This document shows, in pieces, positions 634 to 35,796 of a stretch of 37,118 nucleotides of DNA; position 1 is the first letter of the stretch, and each line of letters begins with the position of its first letter. Below the pieces are notes generated by a model. It ran no database searches, had not been told where the DNA came from, and saw nothing but the letters and a program-made list of their open reading frames with translations. The position numbers and the translations under genes were made by a program. The stretch is taken from positions 1-37,118 of the forward strand of contig RSEH01000355.1 in the NCBI GenBank assembly GCA_006503475.1, read 5' to 3'. Source of the DNA: Stentor roeselii. Lineage: Eukaryota > Ciliophora > Heterotrichea > Heterotrichida > Stentoridae.

Positions 634-1566
634 ATGGAAGCAAGTTACCAAAAACTCAGCACAGGAGGTAGCAACATGTGGCTTTTTAACAGCGTAATAT
701 CTTGCGTGATCCTTGCAACAGGCTCTTTCCTTATAGGTTTAAACGGTCTAGACCCTTACCTAGGAAAGTTAATGGTATCACTTGGTAGTCTAATCACAGG
801 ACTTCTCTGCGTTATTTACTCATCTTTATTTCAAAAGCCTTGTCTTTCATTCAAATTAGAACCAGGTTTTTTCCCATCGATTCTCTCAGGAAGTTTTGTA
901 CACTTCGGCAGCTTTTCCTTGGTCATTGGTTTCAAATATGACCCGGAAAACAATGGAATCATTTCTATCATGGTAATCGGCTCAGCTATCATCGGAGCTG
1001 GGCTGTCCTTTTTAATCTACAACGAAAAACTAGAGGCTTTCGACATCCTGGGCATGGGCATCTCCATCTCAGGTCTGGTCGTGATCGGTATCTACTCAAA
1101 CGGCGAGTCACAAAATTCCTCGATCGGCTTCACCTGCGGTTTATGTGCGATGGGCTTCTTCGCCCTTCGAAGCCTGGCATCTCGAAAAGCTGAAAGATCA
1201 GGAATCGACTTATTCAAGTCTTCCGTGATTTCAGTTTTTAGTGAAGCTTTTACTGGATTTTTGAATATCGCGATTATTTGCTTTTTTGTTGATATTTTTC
1301 AAGATGCTCATCAGGTATGGATTAGTTTGATTGGAGGGGTTTTTTTTGCGATTGGCTCTGTTACTTTGAGTTTAGCGATTATGGCTGGCAAAATGGGACC
1401 TGCTGTTGTTATTGCTAATTGCTTGGGAGTACTTCAGATGGGTATGGATTATGTTTTTAGGGGGATTACACCTGATGGTGGGAAAATGGTTGGAGGGTTT
1501 ATTGCACTTTTTGGAGTCATGGTTTTGCTGTTGTGGAAAGATGTTCTAGGTAAGGGGAATAAGTAA
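634..1566 (+). CDS. EamA/DMT-type transporter, paralog 1
   Basis: A 310-residue integral membrane protein with about ten hydrophobic segments, the usual size and shape of drug/metabolite transporter superfamily members (EamA, SLC35-like). The middle of the protein has a GIISIMVIGSAII helix followed by a YNEKL motif, which resembles the conserved glutamate-lysine turn between helices in EamA half-repeats. A short soluble N-terminus (MEASYQKL) precedes the first helix and matches the start of the paralog at 3133-4068, which supports this ATG. It ends in TAA. Two related genes follow on the opposite strand, so the cluster arose by local duplication with inversion. Substrate and membrane cannot be told from sequence. 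The superfamily call is fairly secure; a nucleotide-sugar or SLC35F-like role is only a possibility. Confidence 0.85.
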   Translation: MEASYQKLSTGGSNMWLFNSVISCVILATGSFLIGLNGLDPYLGKLMVSLGSLITGLLCVIYSSLFQKPCLSFKLEPGFFPSILSGSFVHFGSFSLVIGFKYDPENNGIISIMVIGSAIIGAGLSFLIYNEKLEAFDILGMGISISGLVVIGIYSNGESQNSSIGFTCGLCAMGFFALRSLASRKAERSGIDLFKSSVISVFSEAFTGFLNIAIICFFVDIFQDAHQVWISLIGGVFFAIGSVTLSLAIMAGKMGPAVVIANCLGVLQMGMDYVFRGITPDGGKMVGGFIALFGVMVLLLWKDVLGKGNK

Positions 1567-1708
1567 TTATTATGGAGTAGGAAAGGGTTTTATTAGAATT
1601 TTAAGCCTTTTGTTTAATTCTTATTAAGGATATGATTTTTAAGATTATTTGAATAAGAATCTTATTGAAACTAAATAAAGATTTAAACATTATTAGAAGA
1701 TTGTTCTG

Positions 1709-1950
1709 CAAATTTATTCAAGTAAAAATTATTTCTTTTAAATTCAGCTTAAGAAAAAAAAATCTTTCAGCATCTTAATAAAATAATTCAGTAAATTTAT
1801 TAAAGTAAAAATTATTCTCTCTAAAATCACTAAAGAAAAAAAATCTTTCAGCATCTCACTAAACTAATTCAGTAAACTTATTGAAGTAAAAATTACCCTC
1901 TCTAAAATCACCTCAAGAAAAATAAAACCTTTCGGCATCTCAATAATTTA
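1709..1950. repeat. three tandem copies of a ~80-bp AT-rich unit
   Basis: Units begin with an AAATTTATT- or AAACTTATT-like word at about 1709, 1791 and 1872. Each continues AAGTAAAAATTA, an AAATCAC-like patch and an A-rich run to CTTTCAGCATCT (CTTTCGGCATCT in the last). Unit lengths are about 82, 81 and 79 bp. The array fills most of the space between the stops of paralog 1 (+) and paralog 2 (-), and its last unit reaches the TGA of paralog 2. It is therefore the shared 3' region of two convergent genes. No coding frame runs through it. Confidence 0.8.
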
Positions 1951-1951
1951 T

Positions 1952-2881
1952 TCATCCTTTCACCCTTCCAACCACATCTTTCCACAACATCAAAATCGAA
2001 ACTCCTAAAATCGTAACCGCAGCTCCAACAAGTTTCCCACGAACAGGAACAATGCCTCTAAAAAAGTACTCTAAAACCATCTGCAAAATTCCAGAACAAT
2101 TAGTAATCAAAAGAGCAGGTCCAATTTTTCCCGTCATAATCGCGAAGATCACAAAAAAGCTTCCAATTCCAATAAAAATCCCTCCAACCAAAGAAGTCCA
2201 TCCCTGCCCAGTCCCTTGAAAAACATCGAAAAACATGCAAAGAATTCCGACATTTAAAAATCCTGCTAAAGCCTCACTAAAGACTGAAAAAATTGCAGAC
2301 TTCATCAAAGCGATTCCTTGTCTCTGGGCTTTTCGAGTAGTAAGACTTCGAATTGCATAAAAAACCAAAGCGGCCAATCCGAAGCCGAAGCCAAGAAAAG
2401 ATTCAAAAGAGTTGATTTTTGAGTAGATCCCGATTAAGACCAGGCCTGAAGCGCAGAGGACCATTCCTAAAACATCGAAAACTGCGAGTTTTTCATTGAA
2501 AATAAAGTAAGCAAGGACTGAACTCATGATTGAGGCGCCGATTACCATTATTGAAATGATCCCCGTGTTTTCAGGGTCGAAGTGATAACCAAGGATCAGT
2601 GAAAAGTTGCCTAAATGGTTCAGGGTCCCCGTTAGAACTGAGGTTAATAAACCTGCCTCGTATTTTAGATCTGGAAAATGACCTTCGAATAATAAGGAAT
2701 ATGTCAAGCAGAGAAGACCTGCGGTGAAGTAACCTGATGAGACTTGAAACTTTGAAAGAATTGGGCTTTGAGTGTGTAGACCTAGGGAAAAACCTCCCAA
2801 GCCGAAAAATATCATTGCTAGTAAAGAGTACAGAAGCCAGAAGTTTCTTTTAGGACTTAGCTGGTGATAATTTAAAGTCAT
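1952..2881 (-). CDS. EamA/DMT-type transporter, paralog 2
   Basis: A 309-residue homologue of the genes at 634-1566 and 3133-4068. It has the same ten-helix hydrophobicity and the same landmarks: FDPENTGIISIMVIGASIM, FNEKLAVFDVLGM, a basic RKAQRQGI loop, and an ITGKIGP-like helix (MTGKIGPALLITN) before the last pair of helices. The start (MTLNYHQLSPKRNFW) is collinear with the other two paralogs. It ends in TGA, one of the observations that make TGA a true stop here. It is tandem with paralog 3 on the same strand, 251 bp away, and convergent with paralog 1. Substrate unknown. Confidence 0.85.
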   Translation of the reverse strand: MTLNYHQLSPKRNFWLLYSLLAMIFFGLGGFSLGLHTQSPILSKFQVSSGYFTAGLLCLTYSLLFEGHFPDLKYEAGLLTSVLTGTLNHLGNFSLILGYHFDPENTGIISIMVIGASIMSSVLAYFIFNEKLAVFDVLGMVLCASGLVLIGIYSKINSFESFLGFGFGLAALVFYAIRSLTTRKAQRQGIALMKSAIFSVFSEALAGFLNVGILCMFFDVFQGTGQGWTSLVGGIFIGIGSFFVIFAIMTGKIGPALLITNCSGILQMVLEYFFRGIVPVRGKLVGAAVTILGVSILMLWKDVVGRVKG

Positions 2882-3132
2882 TTTAGAACTTTTATTAGAA
2901 TTCTGCTTGGATTGAGAAAATTTTAGAACTTGAATGATTACAGAAATTAGAAAATATTCTTTTTGAATTTGATTAAGCTTTGAGAAATCATAGTAAAAGA
3001 TATTGAAAATAAAGATCTTAAATATACAAATTTTTAATATTAATCATTCCACCTTCATCTTTCTTCCTAACCAAAAAAACTAATAAAAACTGTTCAGCCC
3101 TCAATCAAGTCCCATCCCGAACTACTTAATAA

Positions 3133-4068
3133 CTAATCATTACTTTTACCTACTAACTCATTCCACAATAACAAAATCGCAACTCCAACAATAGTAATAA
3201 CCCCTCCAACCAGCTGTCCAAGGCCAGGAACAACACCCTTAATAAAGTAATCTAAAGCCATCTGATAAATTCCCATCGAATTCGCAATCATAATCGAAGG
3301 TCCAATTTTCCCAGCCATGACAGCAAAAGTGACAAAAATAGTAGCAATCCCAAACAACACCCCGGCAATCAAAGTGATCCAAAACTGACTCGTATCTCCA
3401 AAAATATCAACAAAAAACCACATGATCCCAATGTTCAAAAATCCTGAAATTCCTTCAAAAAACAAGCAAATGACGACTGACTTAAACATCTCGATTCCAT
3501 TTCTTTCAGCTTTTCTTGCGAATAGGTTTTTAATGGAAAAGAAAATCATTGCATTGATTCCACAGATGAATCCGATAAAAGGGTTTCCAGTTAAACCTTG
3601 GCTTGAAGAACTGATTCCGATTATCACGAGGCCTATCGCGCAGACACTCATTCCGAAGATCTGAGATATTTTTAGCTTTTCGTTGAAGATTAGGTAAGAT
3701 AATGATGATGCTATTATCGCTGAACCTAGAGTTATTATTGAAATTATTCCTGAATGTTGAGGGTCGTAGTGGTAACCAAGGAACATTGAAAAATTTGCCA
3801 AGTGGTAAAATATTCCACTCATTACTGAGGGGATGAAACCTGGCTCGATTTTTAGATTCAGAGATGGAGATTTAAAGGTCAGAGAGTAGAATACGCAGAG
3901 AAATCCTGAGATGAGATAACCTGCTGACACTAATAGTTTGCCGAAATAGGGATTTAAACTGTTTAGTCCTATGAGGAATGCCCCAACTCCTGAAATGATA
4001 GCACATATCAAGGAGTTGATGAGCCATTGATTACTTTGGGAGTCAATATTCTTATAGCTCGATTCCAT
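3133..4068 (-). CDS. EamA/DMT-type transporter, paralog 3
   Basis: The third member of the cluster, 311 residues with about ten transmembrane segments. It carries YDPQHSGIISIITLGSAII, FNEKLKISQIFGM, the basic loop RKAERNGIEMFKS, and a C-terminal GKIGPSIMIANSMGI helix. The N-terminus MESSYKNIDSQSNQW aligns with that of paralog 1, so these two look like the closest pair. It ends in TAG. With the TAA of paralog 1 and the TGA of paralog 2, this one family uses all three standard stops. The 2882-3132 gap upstream of paralog 2 holds nothing I can identify. Confidence 0.85.
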   Translation of the reverse strand: MESSYKNIDSQSNQWLINSLICAIISGVGAFLIGLNSLNPYFGKLLVSAGYLISGFLCVFYSLTFKSPSLNLKIEPGFIPSVMSGIFYHLANFSMFLGYHYDPQHSGIISIITLGSAIIASSLSYLIFNEKLKISQIFGMSVCAIGLVIIGISSSSQGLTGNPFIGFICGINAMIFFSIKNLFARKAERNGIEMFKSVVICLFFEGISGFLNIGIMWFFVDIFGDTSQFWITLIAGVLFGIATIFVTFAVMAGKIGPSIMIANSMGIYQMALDYFIKGVVPGLGQLVGGVITIVGVAILLLWNELVGKSND

Positions 4069-28837: not shown

Positions 28838-30112
28838 CTAAATTTTCCCTTGGCCAATAATATTCAAACTTAAATCTTGAAAATCAAACATGAATATTTT
28901 ATAATCATGATCTATGAAAAAAGCTTTATTATTTCTTTTCACGGGTACACAACTATTCTTATCAAATGAAATATTCTTGCCTGAGTAAGTATTCCAGCCC
29001 TTTAGTTTATTTTTATTACAATAGTAAACTATTTGGCACAAGATATAAATTTTCTTTTTATGTTTCAATAAAATATTAAAATGGTTGATTTCAAAGCCTG
29101 GGTCAAGATCTTGATACGAATTTAATTTAGGGTTATATGACTGAAAAAATCCATTAGATCCAGTGATTAATATTTTAGAATTTAATTTTATTGTGCTGGT
29201 ATCTGACTGGACACTTGGCAGAGGAGCTATTTCAGTCCATTTTCTATCTTTCAAATCAAAGTAATCAGAGGAATTCAAGAATTTATCAGTCCATCCACCG
29301 AAAATGTATATTCTATCAAAAAACAAAATAGGTCTAGCACTATGTCTTTCTCTCCCATTGGCTAGATGTGTGATAGAAAAAGTAAATAAATTAATGAAAA
29401 TTGCCGATGACATAGTTTCTTTACGGGTCCCACCGTAACAGAATAAATTTCCATCATTTAAATAATAGATGCAGGCCTTTTTCCCAATTGGTAAAATATC
29501 CAATATCTCCTTCTTTGAAAACTCATAGTTTTTAGTGTTGAACTTTATTAAATATTTTGTATGATCGATAAAGTAAAATAATAAAGTGTCGTTTCTTGGT
29601 TCAAAGAACTGCTCTTTATTGATTTTTAGTGAATTAAGGAGATTTTCTGCTTTTTTTTGTATTTGATCGAAATCAATAGTTTTAAAATGCTCTTTTTGGC
29701 ATAGATGAAGCATTTCTAAATTGAAGTAATTTTCATTAGAGCTCTTCCTTGATGAAATTGAAATGTTTATTTGATTACAAAAAAGAGATTCTTTCAGCAT
29801 TCTTCTGTTATCTTTTATGATTTCATCTAATTTCCTCACGCACTGAATGATCAAGTTATTGAATTCATCGAAGATTTTTAATATTCCACCCCTTAATTCC
29901 TTGAATTTATTAATCGATTCGATCAATTTTCCAATTATCGAGTCTCTCATACTTGAATGTATGTTCTTTATGCTAGAGAAAAACTTGTGCCGCTTTTCGA
30001 CAGGTTTACTCAAGTGATCAGCTATGTGAAAAGTGCAGCAGAGCTCTATTTCTGTGGAGCATGTACAGTACAGGGTAGGAATAATTTTGCATCCCTTTTG
30101 AAAACACTTCAT
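28838..30112 (-). CDS. B-box-like zinc motif plus Kelch-repeat protein
   Basis: A 424-residue protein. The first ~35 residues hold a cysteine/histidine cluster with B-box-like spacing (CFQKGC, CTCSTEIELCC, FHIADH). A helical coiled region runs over ~45-180, then a Kelch-like beta-propeller over ~185-420, with repeats recognisable as DGNLFCYGG, DRIYIFGGW and SKILITGSNG, followed by W-T-E/x strands. The layout is that of TRIM-like or Kelch adaptor proteins without a RING finger. Such proteins recruit partners; catalysis is not expected. The gene is more AT-rich than those on the left, in line with its surroundings. It ends in TAA and is isolated by more than 1 kb on each side. Confidence 0.8.
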   Translation of the reverse strand: MKCFQKGCKIIPTLYCTCSTEIELCCTFHIADHLSKPVEKRHKFFSSIKNIHSSMRDSIIGKLIESINKFKELRGGILKIFDEFNNLIIQCVRKLDEIIKDNRRMLKESLFCNQINISISSRKSSNENYFNLEMLHLCQKEHFKTIDFDQIQKKAENLLNSLKINKEQFFEPRNDTLLFYFIDHTKYLIKFNTKNYEFSKKEILDILPIGKKACIYYLNDGNLFCYGGTRKETMSSAIFINLFTFSITHLANGRERHSARPILFFDRIYIFGGWTDKFLNSSDYFDLKDRKWTEIAPLPSVQSDTSTIKLNSKILITGSNGFFQSYNPKLNSYQDLDPGFEINHFNILLKHKKKIYILCQIVYYCNKNKLKGWNTYSGKNISFDKNSCVPVKRNNKAFFIDHDYKIFMFDFQDLSLNIIGQGKI

Positions 30113-31740
30113 CTTTATAAAGGGGGGTGATGAAAATTGTTTAATAAGTCATATATTTTCAATAGAATTTTTATTTAATCTGCTTTAATAATATGTAAGA
30201 ATTCAACTATAGATAATATACAATGTAGATCAAAGATAGTATAGTGTATTTCAAACATAATTCACTTTCGTAATTTATCCCAAAACAATTTTTGATAAAT
30301 TTAAAAGACTAGATGTTCTAATAATGACTAACTTAGATACAATTAAATAGCTCTAATTAAGTCATTAAATTGTTTAAATGCCTCCAATCTTGTGGATTTA
30401 ACTTAAGGGTATTTATAAGTAGTGTTCCAAGTCAAATAATTATGCTCTTTTCTATTTATTGATGTTGTATTCAAGATTTCCACTATCATATTAATTATAA
30501 TCAAATGTAGCAACATGATGTAATAATTAACCTAGAGAATAATCCTACACTTTTCTTTACCCGATAAAGTCTTTAGAATTTTTCCTCTGGAGAAATTTAA
30601 ATTAAGATACTTTAAGTTTCAAACTAAAACCAGCGCGCTCCATATCATTAATAAACTCATAATCAAACAAATCAAATAAAAATATTATCAAATTATTATT
30701 AATACAAAAATATTAGGTTTATCTTTTCTATATTTTCTTTCTTTTAATTGATCACGGTACAAAATAAATAGAAGTTTTACACTTAATATTAATTAAAGAA
30801 TCTCATAAGCAATGATTTTTCTTGTACTTTTTAGTTCATTTTCAAAAATATTTTCATTTTTCAATAATAAGAAACCACAAGAGCTTTTTATCATCACTAA
30901 CTATAAACTAAAGATAGGATTGAAAATATGTGTCCAAACATTCTCAATTTTTTATTTCTCTAAATAAAAGAGAAACACTTCCATAAGACTGTCAGACAAC
31001 CAAAATTTTGATATTAAAGAAAAGACAATAATTCTGGTAAAATCATATTAATATATAAGCATATGAATCAAACTTGCTACAAATTTCAAATTCCAATATT
31101 TTCGCTCTTATAAAGTCCAGCTAAAAGTTCTTCGCTCAGTGAGAACTGTAGAAAGTCTACTGAATAATAATTTTATCGAGCTCTAATTTTCCTTTATGAC
31201 CTGATGTAGAAATGCTTACCTTCAGGGTGACAAAGATTGCATAAAAATTTTTTTTTATCAATCAAAATGATCTACAAACTTCTTTATTCAAGTTCCAACT
31301 CTGATCGGTTTCCCAAACATCCTTTAATGAAAAATTTTCTTCAGGGTGAATTCGAGAACTCTATCAAGTAAAATATAAAATTAAAGTTCTTCCTTTAAAT
31401 CAAATAATAAACAATGATTAAATAAAAGTTTGCGGTTGCTATAAAATTTATATCAAGGGAAACAAGAAATATTTGATATCAATAAGATTAGTTGAATCCT
31501 GAAAAGACTTTGGTTAATTGTGGTCCAATAATCAAGCATTTCAAAGAAACCCTTGCAAAATATTTTCGAATTGAAGAGATTGTTATCTTTGAATTACATT
31601 TAATAATGATTCTTTAATAATCATCTCTTGTTGGTTTGTTCAAAGTTACGAATTAATATCTTGACCATTTGTTCCTTAAACCAAGAAGATCCTATGTGGT
31701 GTGAAAAAAAACCATAATGAAAAACAAGGGACTTGTTTTA
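30113..31740. other. 1.6-kb AT-rich region with doubtful relics
   Basis: No complete gene. Two minus-strand stretches look slightly protein-like. One ends in TAA at 30602-30604, with the C-terminal sequence FINDMERAGFSLKLKVS. The other, between about 31190 and 31390, includes CNLCHPEGKHFYIRS flanked by stops, loosely like a zinc-binding B-box start. Neither is long enough to call. They may be remnants of lost genes. Confidence 0.35.
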
Positions 31741-35171: not shown

Positions 35172-35796
35172 CTAGTTTCTAAGATGGTAGCACATATACT
35201 GACACTCCGGGTAGCGGACTAGCCACTCTCTTGTTTCAATTTTTTCGGGATGCCAGGTGCGGAATATACACTGCTTTGATTCCAGTTCCCAAATGTCCAC
35301 TAAGTTGCTGATACTGTCTTCTATATCCATTACCTATGTGTTGGTTACATTCTTTGATGTAGGTTACCATCTTCTTTGTCGATTACAGCCTTATGTAATA
35401 GTTACGGCCTTTGATGTAAGTCACCTACTTCAATGTAGATTACAGCCTTAGATGAGAATTACCAACTTGATTAAAACTTACGATCTTCTTTTTGTGTTAC
35501 CTCCTTCATTATAGGTCACTTTCTTCTTTATATATTACGCCCTTTGTTGAAGATTACAATCTTTTTCGATGATTACCTGTTTAATGATTACAGAAAAAAC
35601 AATATTTTTCATCATTGGTAAATAAAAGCCCTTTATGAACTTTTCGTAATGATTGCTCTGTCCAGTCATATGCCCACCAGTATTCTTGAGACATACCCCA
35701 GAAGTATTCGAATTTTTCTTTTTCATTTAGGGATTTAAGTTCTGCATAAGGATACCCTTTAAATATTTTCGTTTCCGTTTCTGTTTCCACTTCCAT
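35172..35796 (-). CDS. small Trp-rich protein split by a tandem micro-intron array
   Basis: The first exon, 35796-35592, encodes 68 residues from MEVETETETK to NDEKYCFF, with many aromatics (EYFWGMSQEYWWAYDW). Read on, the frame stops within one unit. From 35591 to 35300 lie sixteen GT...AG units of 15 or 16 nt with thirteen 3-nt spacers. Joining first exon, spacers and last exon (35299-35172) gives an open frame of exactly 124 codons ending in TAG at 35172-35174. The spacers contribute YWQRDLGLGRYEY, and the last exon continues MDIWELESKQCIF and so on, again rich in W, Y, C and charged residues. The last exon is about 45% GC in AT-rich surroundings, which favours coding. Removing the whole block as one 292-nt intron also keeps the frame. 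No protein family recognised. The exon model is inference. Confidence 0.5.
35300..35591 (-). repeat. array of sixteen 15/16-nt GT-AG intron-like units, 19-nt period
   Basis: Unit limits on the plus strand, in transcript order: 35577-35591 (15 nt), then 16-nt units 35561-35576, 35542-35557, 35523-35538, 35504-35519, 35485-35500, 35466-35481, 35447-35462, 35428-35443, 35409-35424, 35390-35405, 35371-35386 and 35352-35367, then 35334-35348 (15), 35318-35333 (16) and 35300-35314 (15). Twelve units keep an exact 19-nt step. All begin GT and end AG. Thirteen begin GTAA, two GTGA and one GTAT. Position 4 is A in 15 of 16 and position 10 is A in 15 of 16. All 16-nt units end AAG; the 15-nt units end CAG or TAG. 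Other positions vary freely. Spacers in transcript order: ATT, GGC, AAA, GAG, ATC, TTG, GCT, TAG, GCC, GCT, ATG, AAT, ACA. Confidence 0.9.

Follow-up and report, generated by a model that had tools for sequence, protein, structure and literature searches.

The locus considered here lies in a contig of 37,118 nt from Stentor roeselii (RSEH01000355.1, called the window below, at its full length). On its minus strand sixteen GT..AG units follow one another in tandem at positions 35300-35591, and the question is whether each of them is an intron of its own and, if so, what is made of the few nucleotides left between them. We consider it highly probable that in every array of this kind, in the window and in related genes, each unit is removed by splicing on its own, and that what is left codes for a hypervariable protein loop, 6-14 residues long. 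The parts of the window gene are given in Table 1.

The structure of the window array was analyzed first for what it shows by itself. Three units are 15 nt long and thirteen are 16 nt long; they are separated by 3 nt (13 cases) or by 0 nt (2 cases), and this re-listing agrees with the earlier note on this DNA. Removal of all 16 units gives a spliced product of 123 residues, the length of open frame that the note had announced. A at position 10 is found in 15 of the 16 units, as had been stated, but A at position 4, given there as constant, is likewise found in 15 of 16, since the last unit begins with GTAT. All thirteen units of 16 nt agree at positions 1, 2, 4, 14, 15 and 16 and at no other. 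The exons between the units were described in the note as single-codon exons. They do measure 3 nt, but exon 1 ends in phase 1 and they are therefore off the codon register, each consisting of two bases of one codon and one base of the next. The exon TAG at 35425-35427 thus plays no role as a stop. Exon 1 of the window is homologous to the exon 1 ends of the paralogues, and exon 2 consists of the second half of a WD40-like repeat followed by a C-terminal tail. As GT..AG borders and a length of 15-16 nt were also the search rule, the evidence lies in the length of the run and not in single units: 16 units in the window against a longest run of 4 in resampled family regions (first-order Markov, one for each of 97 regions). 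Neither strand of the window contains another chain of at least 4 units under the rule used (GT..AG units of 15-16 nt having A at position 10, position 11 being allowed in those of 16 nt, with gaps of at most 12).

Table 1. Parts of the window gene and an associated site (positions in the window)
Feature	Position	Strand	Remarks
Site of the ordinary exon 1 intron of the paralogues	35742..35756	-	GG in place of GT in the window, read in frame (KGYPYAE); alignment by eye
Exon 1	35592..35796	-	ATG at 35796-35794; 68 residues MEVETETETKIFKGYPYAEL...LLFTNDEKYCFF + T, first base of the next codon
Intron unit 1, 15 nt	35577..35591	-	tandem-unit parse
Intron unit 2, 16 nt	35561..35576	-	0-nt spacer after unit 1
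3-nt exon ATT	35558..35560	-	recurs at the same place in parsed paralogues
Intron unit 3, 16 nt	35542..35557	-	tandem-unit parse
3-nt exon GGC	35539..35541	-	tandem-unit parse
Intron unit 4, 16 nt	35523..35538	-	tandem-unit parse
3-nt exon AAA	35520..35522	-	tandem-unit parse
Intron unit 5, 16 nt	35504..35519	-	tandem-unit parse
3-nt exon GAG	35501..35503	-	tandem-unit parse
Intron unit 6, 16 nt	35485..35500	-	tandem-unit parse
3-nt exon ATC	35482..35484	-	tandem-unit parse
Intron unit 7, 16 nt	35466..35481	-	tandem-unit parse
3-nt exon TTG	35463..35465	-	tandem-unit parse
Intron unit 8, 16 nt	35447..35462	-	tandem-unit parse
3-nt exon GCT	35444..35446	-	tandem-unit parse
Intron unit 9, 16 nt	35428..35443	-	tandem-unit parse
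3-nt exon TAG	35425..35427	-	straddles two codons, not read as a stop
Intron unit 10, 16 nt	35409..35424	-	tandem-unit parse
3-nt exon GCC	35406..35408	-	tandem-unit parse
Intron unit 11, 16 nt	35390..35405	-	tandem-unit parse
3-nt exon GCT	35387..35389	-	tandem-unit parse
Intron unit 12, 16 nt	35371..35386	-	tandem-unit parse
3-nt exon ATG	35368..35370	-	tandem-unit parse
Intron unit 13, 16 nt	35352..35367	-	tandem-unit parse
3-nt exon AAT	35349..35351	-	tandem-unit parse
Intron unit 14, 15 nt	35334..35348	-	tandem-unit parse
Intron unit 15, 16 nt	35318..35333	-	0-nt spacer after unit 14
3-nt exon ACA	35315..35317	-	tandem-unit parse
Intron unit 16, 15 nt	35300..35314	-	tandem-unit parse
Exon 2	35172..35299	-	two bases ending the last loop codon, then DIWELESKQCIFRTWHPEKIETREWLVRYPECQYMCYHLRN; TAG stop at 35174-35172

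Tiny introns are the rule in heterotrichs. Introns of S. coeruleus and Blepharisma stoltei are reported to be almost all 15-16 nt long (PMC9505925; PMC9942806), and in S. coeruleus 92.8% of them measure 15 nt and 7.2% measure 16 nt (PMC9505925). The window units resemble them in length and in their GT..AG borders, and the 15-nt units also in the A at position 10. The same source gives one intron for most intron-bearing genes of S. coeruleus, and notes genes with more than 8 introns for which the splicing of all is uncertain (PMC9505925). The arrays described here differ from that picture in that up to 20 units stand in tandem, about half of them are 16 nt long, and the spacers are of 0 or 3 nt. 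The genetic code appears standard, as in Stentor (PMC9505925): the window contains 16 ORFs of at least 200 aa under standard stops. A reading of TAA and TAG as codons for Q was rejected, the stops in exon 1 of the paralogues falling inside an ordinary 15-nt GT..AG intron.

To which family the window gene belongs was examined in the same assembly (522 contigs, 44.4 Mb, the window being contig C293). A DNA search gave at least 44 matches; the C-terminal exon of a paralogue gave at least 96 (E up to 1), and an N-terminal query at least 130 (E up to 0.01; 150 of 171 candidates scored). All these counts are lower bounds, and a gene may account for several matches. The regions retained for analysis were 28 around DNA matches and 69 around C-terminal matches, i.e. 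97 regions covering 92 of the 96 C-terminal matches, the four left out being weak ones. Chains of at least 4 units were present in 74 of 96 regions, with 661 units in total and a longest chain of 20, as against 4 in resampled regions, when no rule on the A was applied. Paralogues thus carry arrays too, which bears on a check proposed in the earlier note, where homologues aligning to the outer exons alone would have favoured a single intron. The window copy is a divergent member of the family: the N-terminal query did not match it (150 candidates out of 171 being scored), nor does its exon 2 figure among the at least 96 C-terminal matches. Its kinship is based on a match to contig C221 at the DNA level (70% identity, query 16-595, E 6e-62) and on its exon 1 (E 4e-7). 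No intronless (retro) copy was recognised in 114 matches, several of which reach the loop region (12 loci viewed).

Two other observations concern the family as a whole. The longest chain, in L038 (G000:C244:8323-10436), contains 20 units with mostly alternating 0- and 3-nt spacers, so that single 3-nt exons lie between pairs of adjoining units (30-31 nt per pair). Many copies lie near contig ends, and a subtelomeric position was considered. It was not borne out in the 14 ends viewed, and assembly breaks are likely: some ends lie inside family genes, two pairs of ends are identical over 90 bases and a third pair differs by one. The contigs C506/C488, C82/C51 and C459/C521 end inside or beside family genes with an end sequence common to each pair. 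The family may break the assembly, in which case its copy number would be underestimated.

The lengths of the spacers provide the first argument for splicing of each unit. In the parse of the 97 regions the number of units was maximised and no preference was given to any spacer length; GT, AG and A at 10 (11 allowed in 16-nt units) were fixed, and these letters are therefore not evidence. Spacers divisible by 3 account for 489 of 495, about 9 spacers being counted twice because L089 and L096 overlap on the same array, which is not so in the 96-region parse. They are distributed as follows: 0 nt in 100 cases, 3 nt in 346, 6 nt in 35, 9 nt in 7, 12 nt in 1 and other lengths in 6. Unit lengths in the same parse are mixed (303 of 15 nt, 287 of 16 nt). 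Markov resamples parsed in this way gave 40% of spacers divisible by 3 (about 11 spacers per replicate). With the A rule dropped, the count is 573 of 587 spacers in 96 regions. Since the spacers are multiples of 3 while units of 15 and 16 nt are mixed, the frame is kept by the spacers and not by the units. In this parse without an A rule the A is at 10 in 314 of 366 15-nt units. In 16-nt units it is at 10 in 259 of 295 cases and at 11 in 26 of the rest, whereas the branch A of 16-nt introns is reported mostly at 11 in S. coeruleus (PMC9505925).

Of the 25 loci in which an exon 2 anchor is recognised, 23 pass from exon 1 into exon 2 in register once the units are spliced out, the exceptions being L011 and L026. 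Among the 3 loci without anchor, L010 and L015 read in frame, and in L029 the parse stops short of exon 2. Taken alone this joining test is not decisive, as removal of the whole array also keeps the frame between exon 1 and exon 2. We also discarded the idea that the unspliced array is translated directly in a rotating frame, since its length modulo 3 is distributed 10/9/6 over the 25 anchored loci. Two loci depart from the 15-16 nt rule in their first intron, which would measure 14 nt in L034 and 15+14 nt in L027.

The second argument comes from stop codons. When the 3-nt exons of 24 loci are joined and read in the frame set by exon 1, no stop is found in 233 codons; the other two frames contain 5 and 28 stops in 209 codons each, and in two kinds of shuffles about 15 stops are expected, none of 5000 falling below 5. 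These are 24 of 29 loci, L011 and L026 (out of frame) and L029, L030 and L036 (poorly parsed or decayed) being excluded. If TGA is not counted as a stop, the figures are 0 against 1 and 13. A second set was read back from exon 2 and gave 1 stop in 141 codons, located in L044, compared to 16 and 15 in 139 codons. It comprises the 15 loci out of 67 tried in which the parse reaches exon 2 with at least 5 units, the other 52 having been dropped; two of the 15, L088 and L091, are near-duplicates. This avoidance of stops in the predicted frame indicates that the 3-nt exons are very likely translated.

The third argument is provided by the predicted product. A WD40-like repeat is interrupted within its first strand by the end of exon 1 (..FSNDGKYCFF), and its second strand (VWNLETK..) opens exon 2; the joined domain reads ..ELLFSNDGKYCFF-Y-loop-x-VWNLETK..RYPEC.Y..WGY (17 sequences). 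In profile comparison, the joined halves appear to resemble a WD40 repeat. When the spliced domain was compared by hhalign to 17 WD40 repeats from this genome, the result was a probability of 95.4, an E of 1.7e-8 (single comparison) and a score of 41.7, against a maximum of 13.3 in 40 column-shuffled controls and 10.8 for the N-terminal alignment; the choice of the 17 repeats was not independent, these being taken from large ORFs weakly matched by the joined query (E 0.003-0.18). The distance from GK to VWN is 11-19 residues in the 24 spliced loci when the 3-nt exons are kept, and 12 residues in the WD40 repeats of the same genome. By formula, it falls to 6 if the array is removed whole. The spacing is thus WD40-like solely with the 3-nt exons kept, which indicates that splicing would restore a WD40-like repeat split between exons 1 and 2. 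No Pfam match above cut-offs was obtained with 4 spliced proteins, 11 N-termini and 17 C-terminal domains. A profile search of the PDB gave 4 matches, all sub-threshold (E 0.09 to 1.2): two RACK1, the platelet-activating factor acetylhydrolase IB subunit beta, which we take to be LIS1, a WD40 protein, and an acyl-CoA binding protein. Each of the 24 gene models presents one repeat-like stretch by eye, and not the several repeats of a propeller. With moderate confidence, the loop would correspond to the b-c turn of the WD40-like repeat and to a recognition surface. The b-c turn is on the binding face of WD40 propellers. Elsewhere in the genome, L106-L111 are parts of ORFs of great length (1229-2102 aa) in which WD40 repeats are nearly identical to one another; they may represent a further family in rapid evolution.

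Taken together, spacer lengths, stops and fold strongly support unit-by-unit splicing as the predicted fate of the arrays, and the earlier suggestion that splicing is the simplest reading gains from the paralogues what one copy could not give. The array might otherwise be removed as one intron of about 290 nt, the GT..AG units being a non-coding internal satellite. The product would be in frame too, as the spacers sum to a multiple of 3. But a satellite has no reason to hold its spacers at multiples of 3 while its units vary between 15 and 16 nt, nor to avoid stops in exactly one frame, nor would it account for a WD40-like spacing that depends on the 3-nt exons. In L030, a decayed copy, the array is in pieces and several GT have become AT or CT and several AG have become AA (by eye); GT and AG are thus lost where the copy decays, and the intact splice signals of other copies are probably maintained. 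The size reported for heterotrich introns, 15-16 nt (PMC9505925; PMC9942806), also speaks against one large intron, and we regard this explanation as very unlikely. Still harder to believe is that the units are IES-like elements removed from germline DNA, of which the contig would be a piece. Ciliates do remove DNA elements, many of them within genes (PMC9942806), but the units carry the GT, A10 and AG signals and the length of heterotrich introns, and chains of at least 4 units persist in the assembly in those 74 of 96 regions. Somewhat less improbable, though we do not favour it, is variable splicing, in which donors and acceptors of different units would be joined, 3-nt exons skipped and many loop isoforms produced from each gene. 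Any joining between units would be in frame, given spacers that are multiples of 3; skipping of an exon, on the other hand, needs introns of at least 33 nt, compared to the 15-16 nt reported for Stentor (PMC9505925). At the 0-nt spacers, the two neighbouring units (30-31 nt) may be removed together.

The role of the loop is a separate matter, and here two readings that both accept the splicing have to be weighed. The loop measures 6-14 residues in 24 loci, the first constant Y and the last residue included. In 99 units of the closer paralogues, the heterozygosity of the three spacer positions is 0.72, 0.59 and 0.75 (maximum 0.75), compared to 0-0.51 at intron positions. These units come from a parse with a weight matrix built on the units themselves, which favours alike introns and is blind to the spacer letters. 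Gene conversion of the introns could also explain this contrast between exons and introns. It is a serious, though not the leading, possibility that splicing proceeds as described but yields a neutral linker, with 3-nt exons free to drift and introns kept alike solely by splicing or gene conversion. The weight matrix fits this reading, and so do the recent duplicates, which retain their 3-nt exons (L081 and L082 have the same ones, L088 and L091 differ by one base) and in which rapid hypermutation is not apparent. Of the 28 pairs compared in exon 2, 27 have a pS above the pN. Of 185 loop residues 47 are aromatic, against 10.8% in a random-junction background. If the first variable position is not counted, the composition departs only mildly from random, with 26 aromatics in 161 residues (p 0.04) and a low share of aliphatics plus Pro (22 of 161, p 0.004). 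Against a neutral linker, intron interiors can change, and have changed in older family members, and yet units of identical interior in different loci have the same 3-nt exon in 7.0% of 456 pairs only (chance 2.5%; 155 core units, 28 loci). The loop is moreover placed between two conserved strands, and one pair, L009/L024, the sole one with pN above pS, has an exon 2 pN of 0.34 against a pS of 0.09. In the loop itself pN/pS was computable in 2 of 28 pairs, those of equal length, as loop lengths mostly differ (4 codons, pS 0.18 and pN 0.60; 9 codons, pS 1.20 and pN 0.61). Diversifying selection is possible on these figures, but the support for it is weak.

The other reading, put forward tentatively and as less likely than not, is that about 100 recognition-type proteins are diversified one amino acid at a time, the near-identical mini-introns serving as frame-neutral recombination sites at which unequal exchange, inside one gene or from gene to gene, would lengthen, shorten and reshuffle a CDR3-like loop with the frame intact. 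For the proteins we infer a recognition role. Growth of the arrays by duplication of an intron with 3 nt had been suggested in the earlier note. It is in keeping with the neighbouring units of identical interior, which share their 3-nt exon in 4 of 12 pairs; this sharing, higher than between loci, fits tandem duplication of intron plus 3 nt. Tandem runs of the same exon are also seen (CTA three times in L019, TTG three times in L055).

A mechanism can be proposed for the unit-by-unit splicing and for the evolution of the loop. The spliceosome of Stentor roeselii, handling 15-16-nt introns like those of Stentor and Blepharisma, would remove every unit, and we hold this step with high confidence. 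Intron length, being strict, could serve as a ruler by which every GT finds the AG that belongs to it, including where another GT follows after 0 or 3 nt. The array would then be read without ambiguity and the 3-nt exons joined into the loop. With intron plus 3 nt as the repeat unit, duplication, loss or exchange between similar introns would change the loop by whole residues and in frame, and the intron would become a frame-neutral spacer for a loop diversifying residue by residue.

The upstream part of the genes was analyzed in 11 aligned N-termini. Eight Cys/His positions are invariant, with the spacing C-x4-C-x7-C-x2-C-x6-C-x2-H-x3-H-x5-H in the first sequence of the 11, and a coiled-coil-like stretch follows by eye. 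From its spacing the Cys/His module is read as B-box-like. TRIM (RBCC) proteins are composed of a RING finger, a B-box and a coiled coil; among the 11 N-termini neither RING nor B-box was found above the Pfam cut-off (best B-box match E 0.91), and the family is accordingly not classed with the TRIM (RBCC) type. The window copy starts later, and no N-terminal module is seen in it. An ordinary 15-nt intron interrupts exon 1 in 16 of 24 gene models, 15 of them with A at 10. In L032 this intron is also without one splice signal and read in frame (KGYAYVK), and the exon 1 intron seems to have become coding sequence both there and in the window. Some copies carry upstream lesions: a frame break in L015, a TAG in L017 and a TGA in L024. 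The Cys/His-rich module is also present, with other C-termini, in long ORFs of L113 (C237), L114 (C48) and L115 (C390); in L114 the C-terminus contains zinc-finger-like repeats by eye.

Several known systems share part of this organization. The MEG genes of Schistosoma likewise form a variable family with very short exons, 10-20 in number and mostly of a length divisible by three (PMC10526429). They differ by introns of 0.1-5 kb, exons mostly of 15 bp and secreted proteins, and the available part of the source describes no repeated intron-plus-3-nt unit (PMC10526429). The short exons considered here lie between units of 15-16 nt, and not between long introns. In the fungal HNWD proteins (HET-E, HET-D, HET-R), WD repeats are hypervariable and shuffled, with diversifying selection at four surface positions that lie on the face used for interaction (PMC4986451). 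The shuffling concerns whole WD repeats in those proteins, whereas in the present family single loop residues would be exchanged through 3-nt exons. The Pfam scans of spliced proteins, N-termini and C-terminal domains described above showed no NACHT or HET domain, and the family is not classed as an NLR of HNWD type. Exons of 1 nt in Arabidopsis and of 3 nt in Drosophila homothorax can be spliced; as far as they are described in these sources, they are isolated cases and not arrays (PMC4674806, PMC7392893). In the intron gain by tandem duplication reported previously, a duplicated stretch gives rise to a new intron (PMC4974935), whereas here an existing intron with its adjacent 3 nt would be duplicated, many times. 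Among the matches listed in the open-licence literature on tiny exons or introns and on hypervariable families, none mentions such a tandem array in its title or the opening of its abstract.

Exons of 1-3 nt are known singly, whereas the present family as a whole would rely on many of them placed one after another. If true, this shows what a spliceosome with a strict length rule is capable of, and offers a natural system in which exons of zero and three nucleotides are testable. Introns would also take on a useful function, preserving the frame as spacers in a gene that diversifies. Such a layout could let the loop gain, lose or swap single amino acids with the gene intact. The genes are candidates for a recognition receptor family in a ciliate, for self/non-self or defence. 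They may easily be missed or broken by automatic annotation.

Other features of the window contig were noted. On the minus strand at 28838-30148, an ORF of 436 aa begins with a Cys/His-rich segment followed by kelch-like repeats (by eye), and is a possible distant cousin in layout. A cluster of three related multi-pass membrane ORFs of 310-363 aa, transporter-like by eye, occupies 634-4068. Near that other end of the contig, tandem repeats are found at 51-327 (period of about 62/122 bp) and at 1710-1946 (81 bp).
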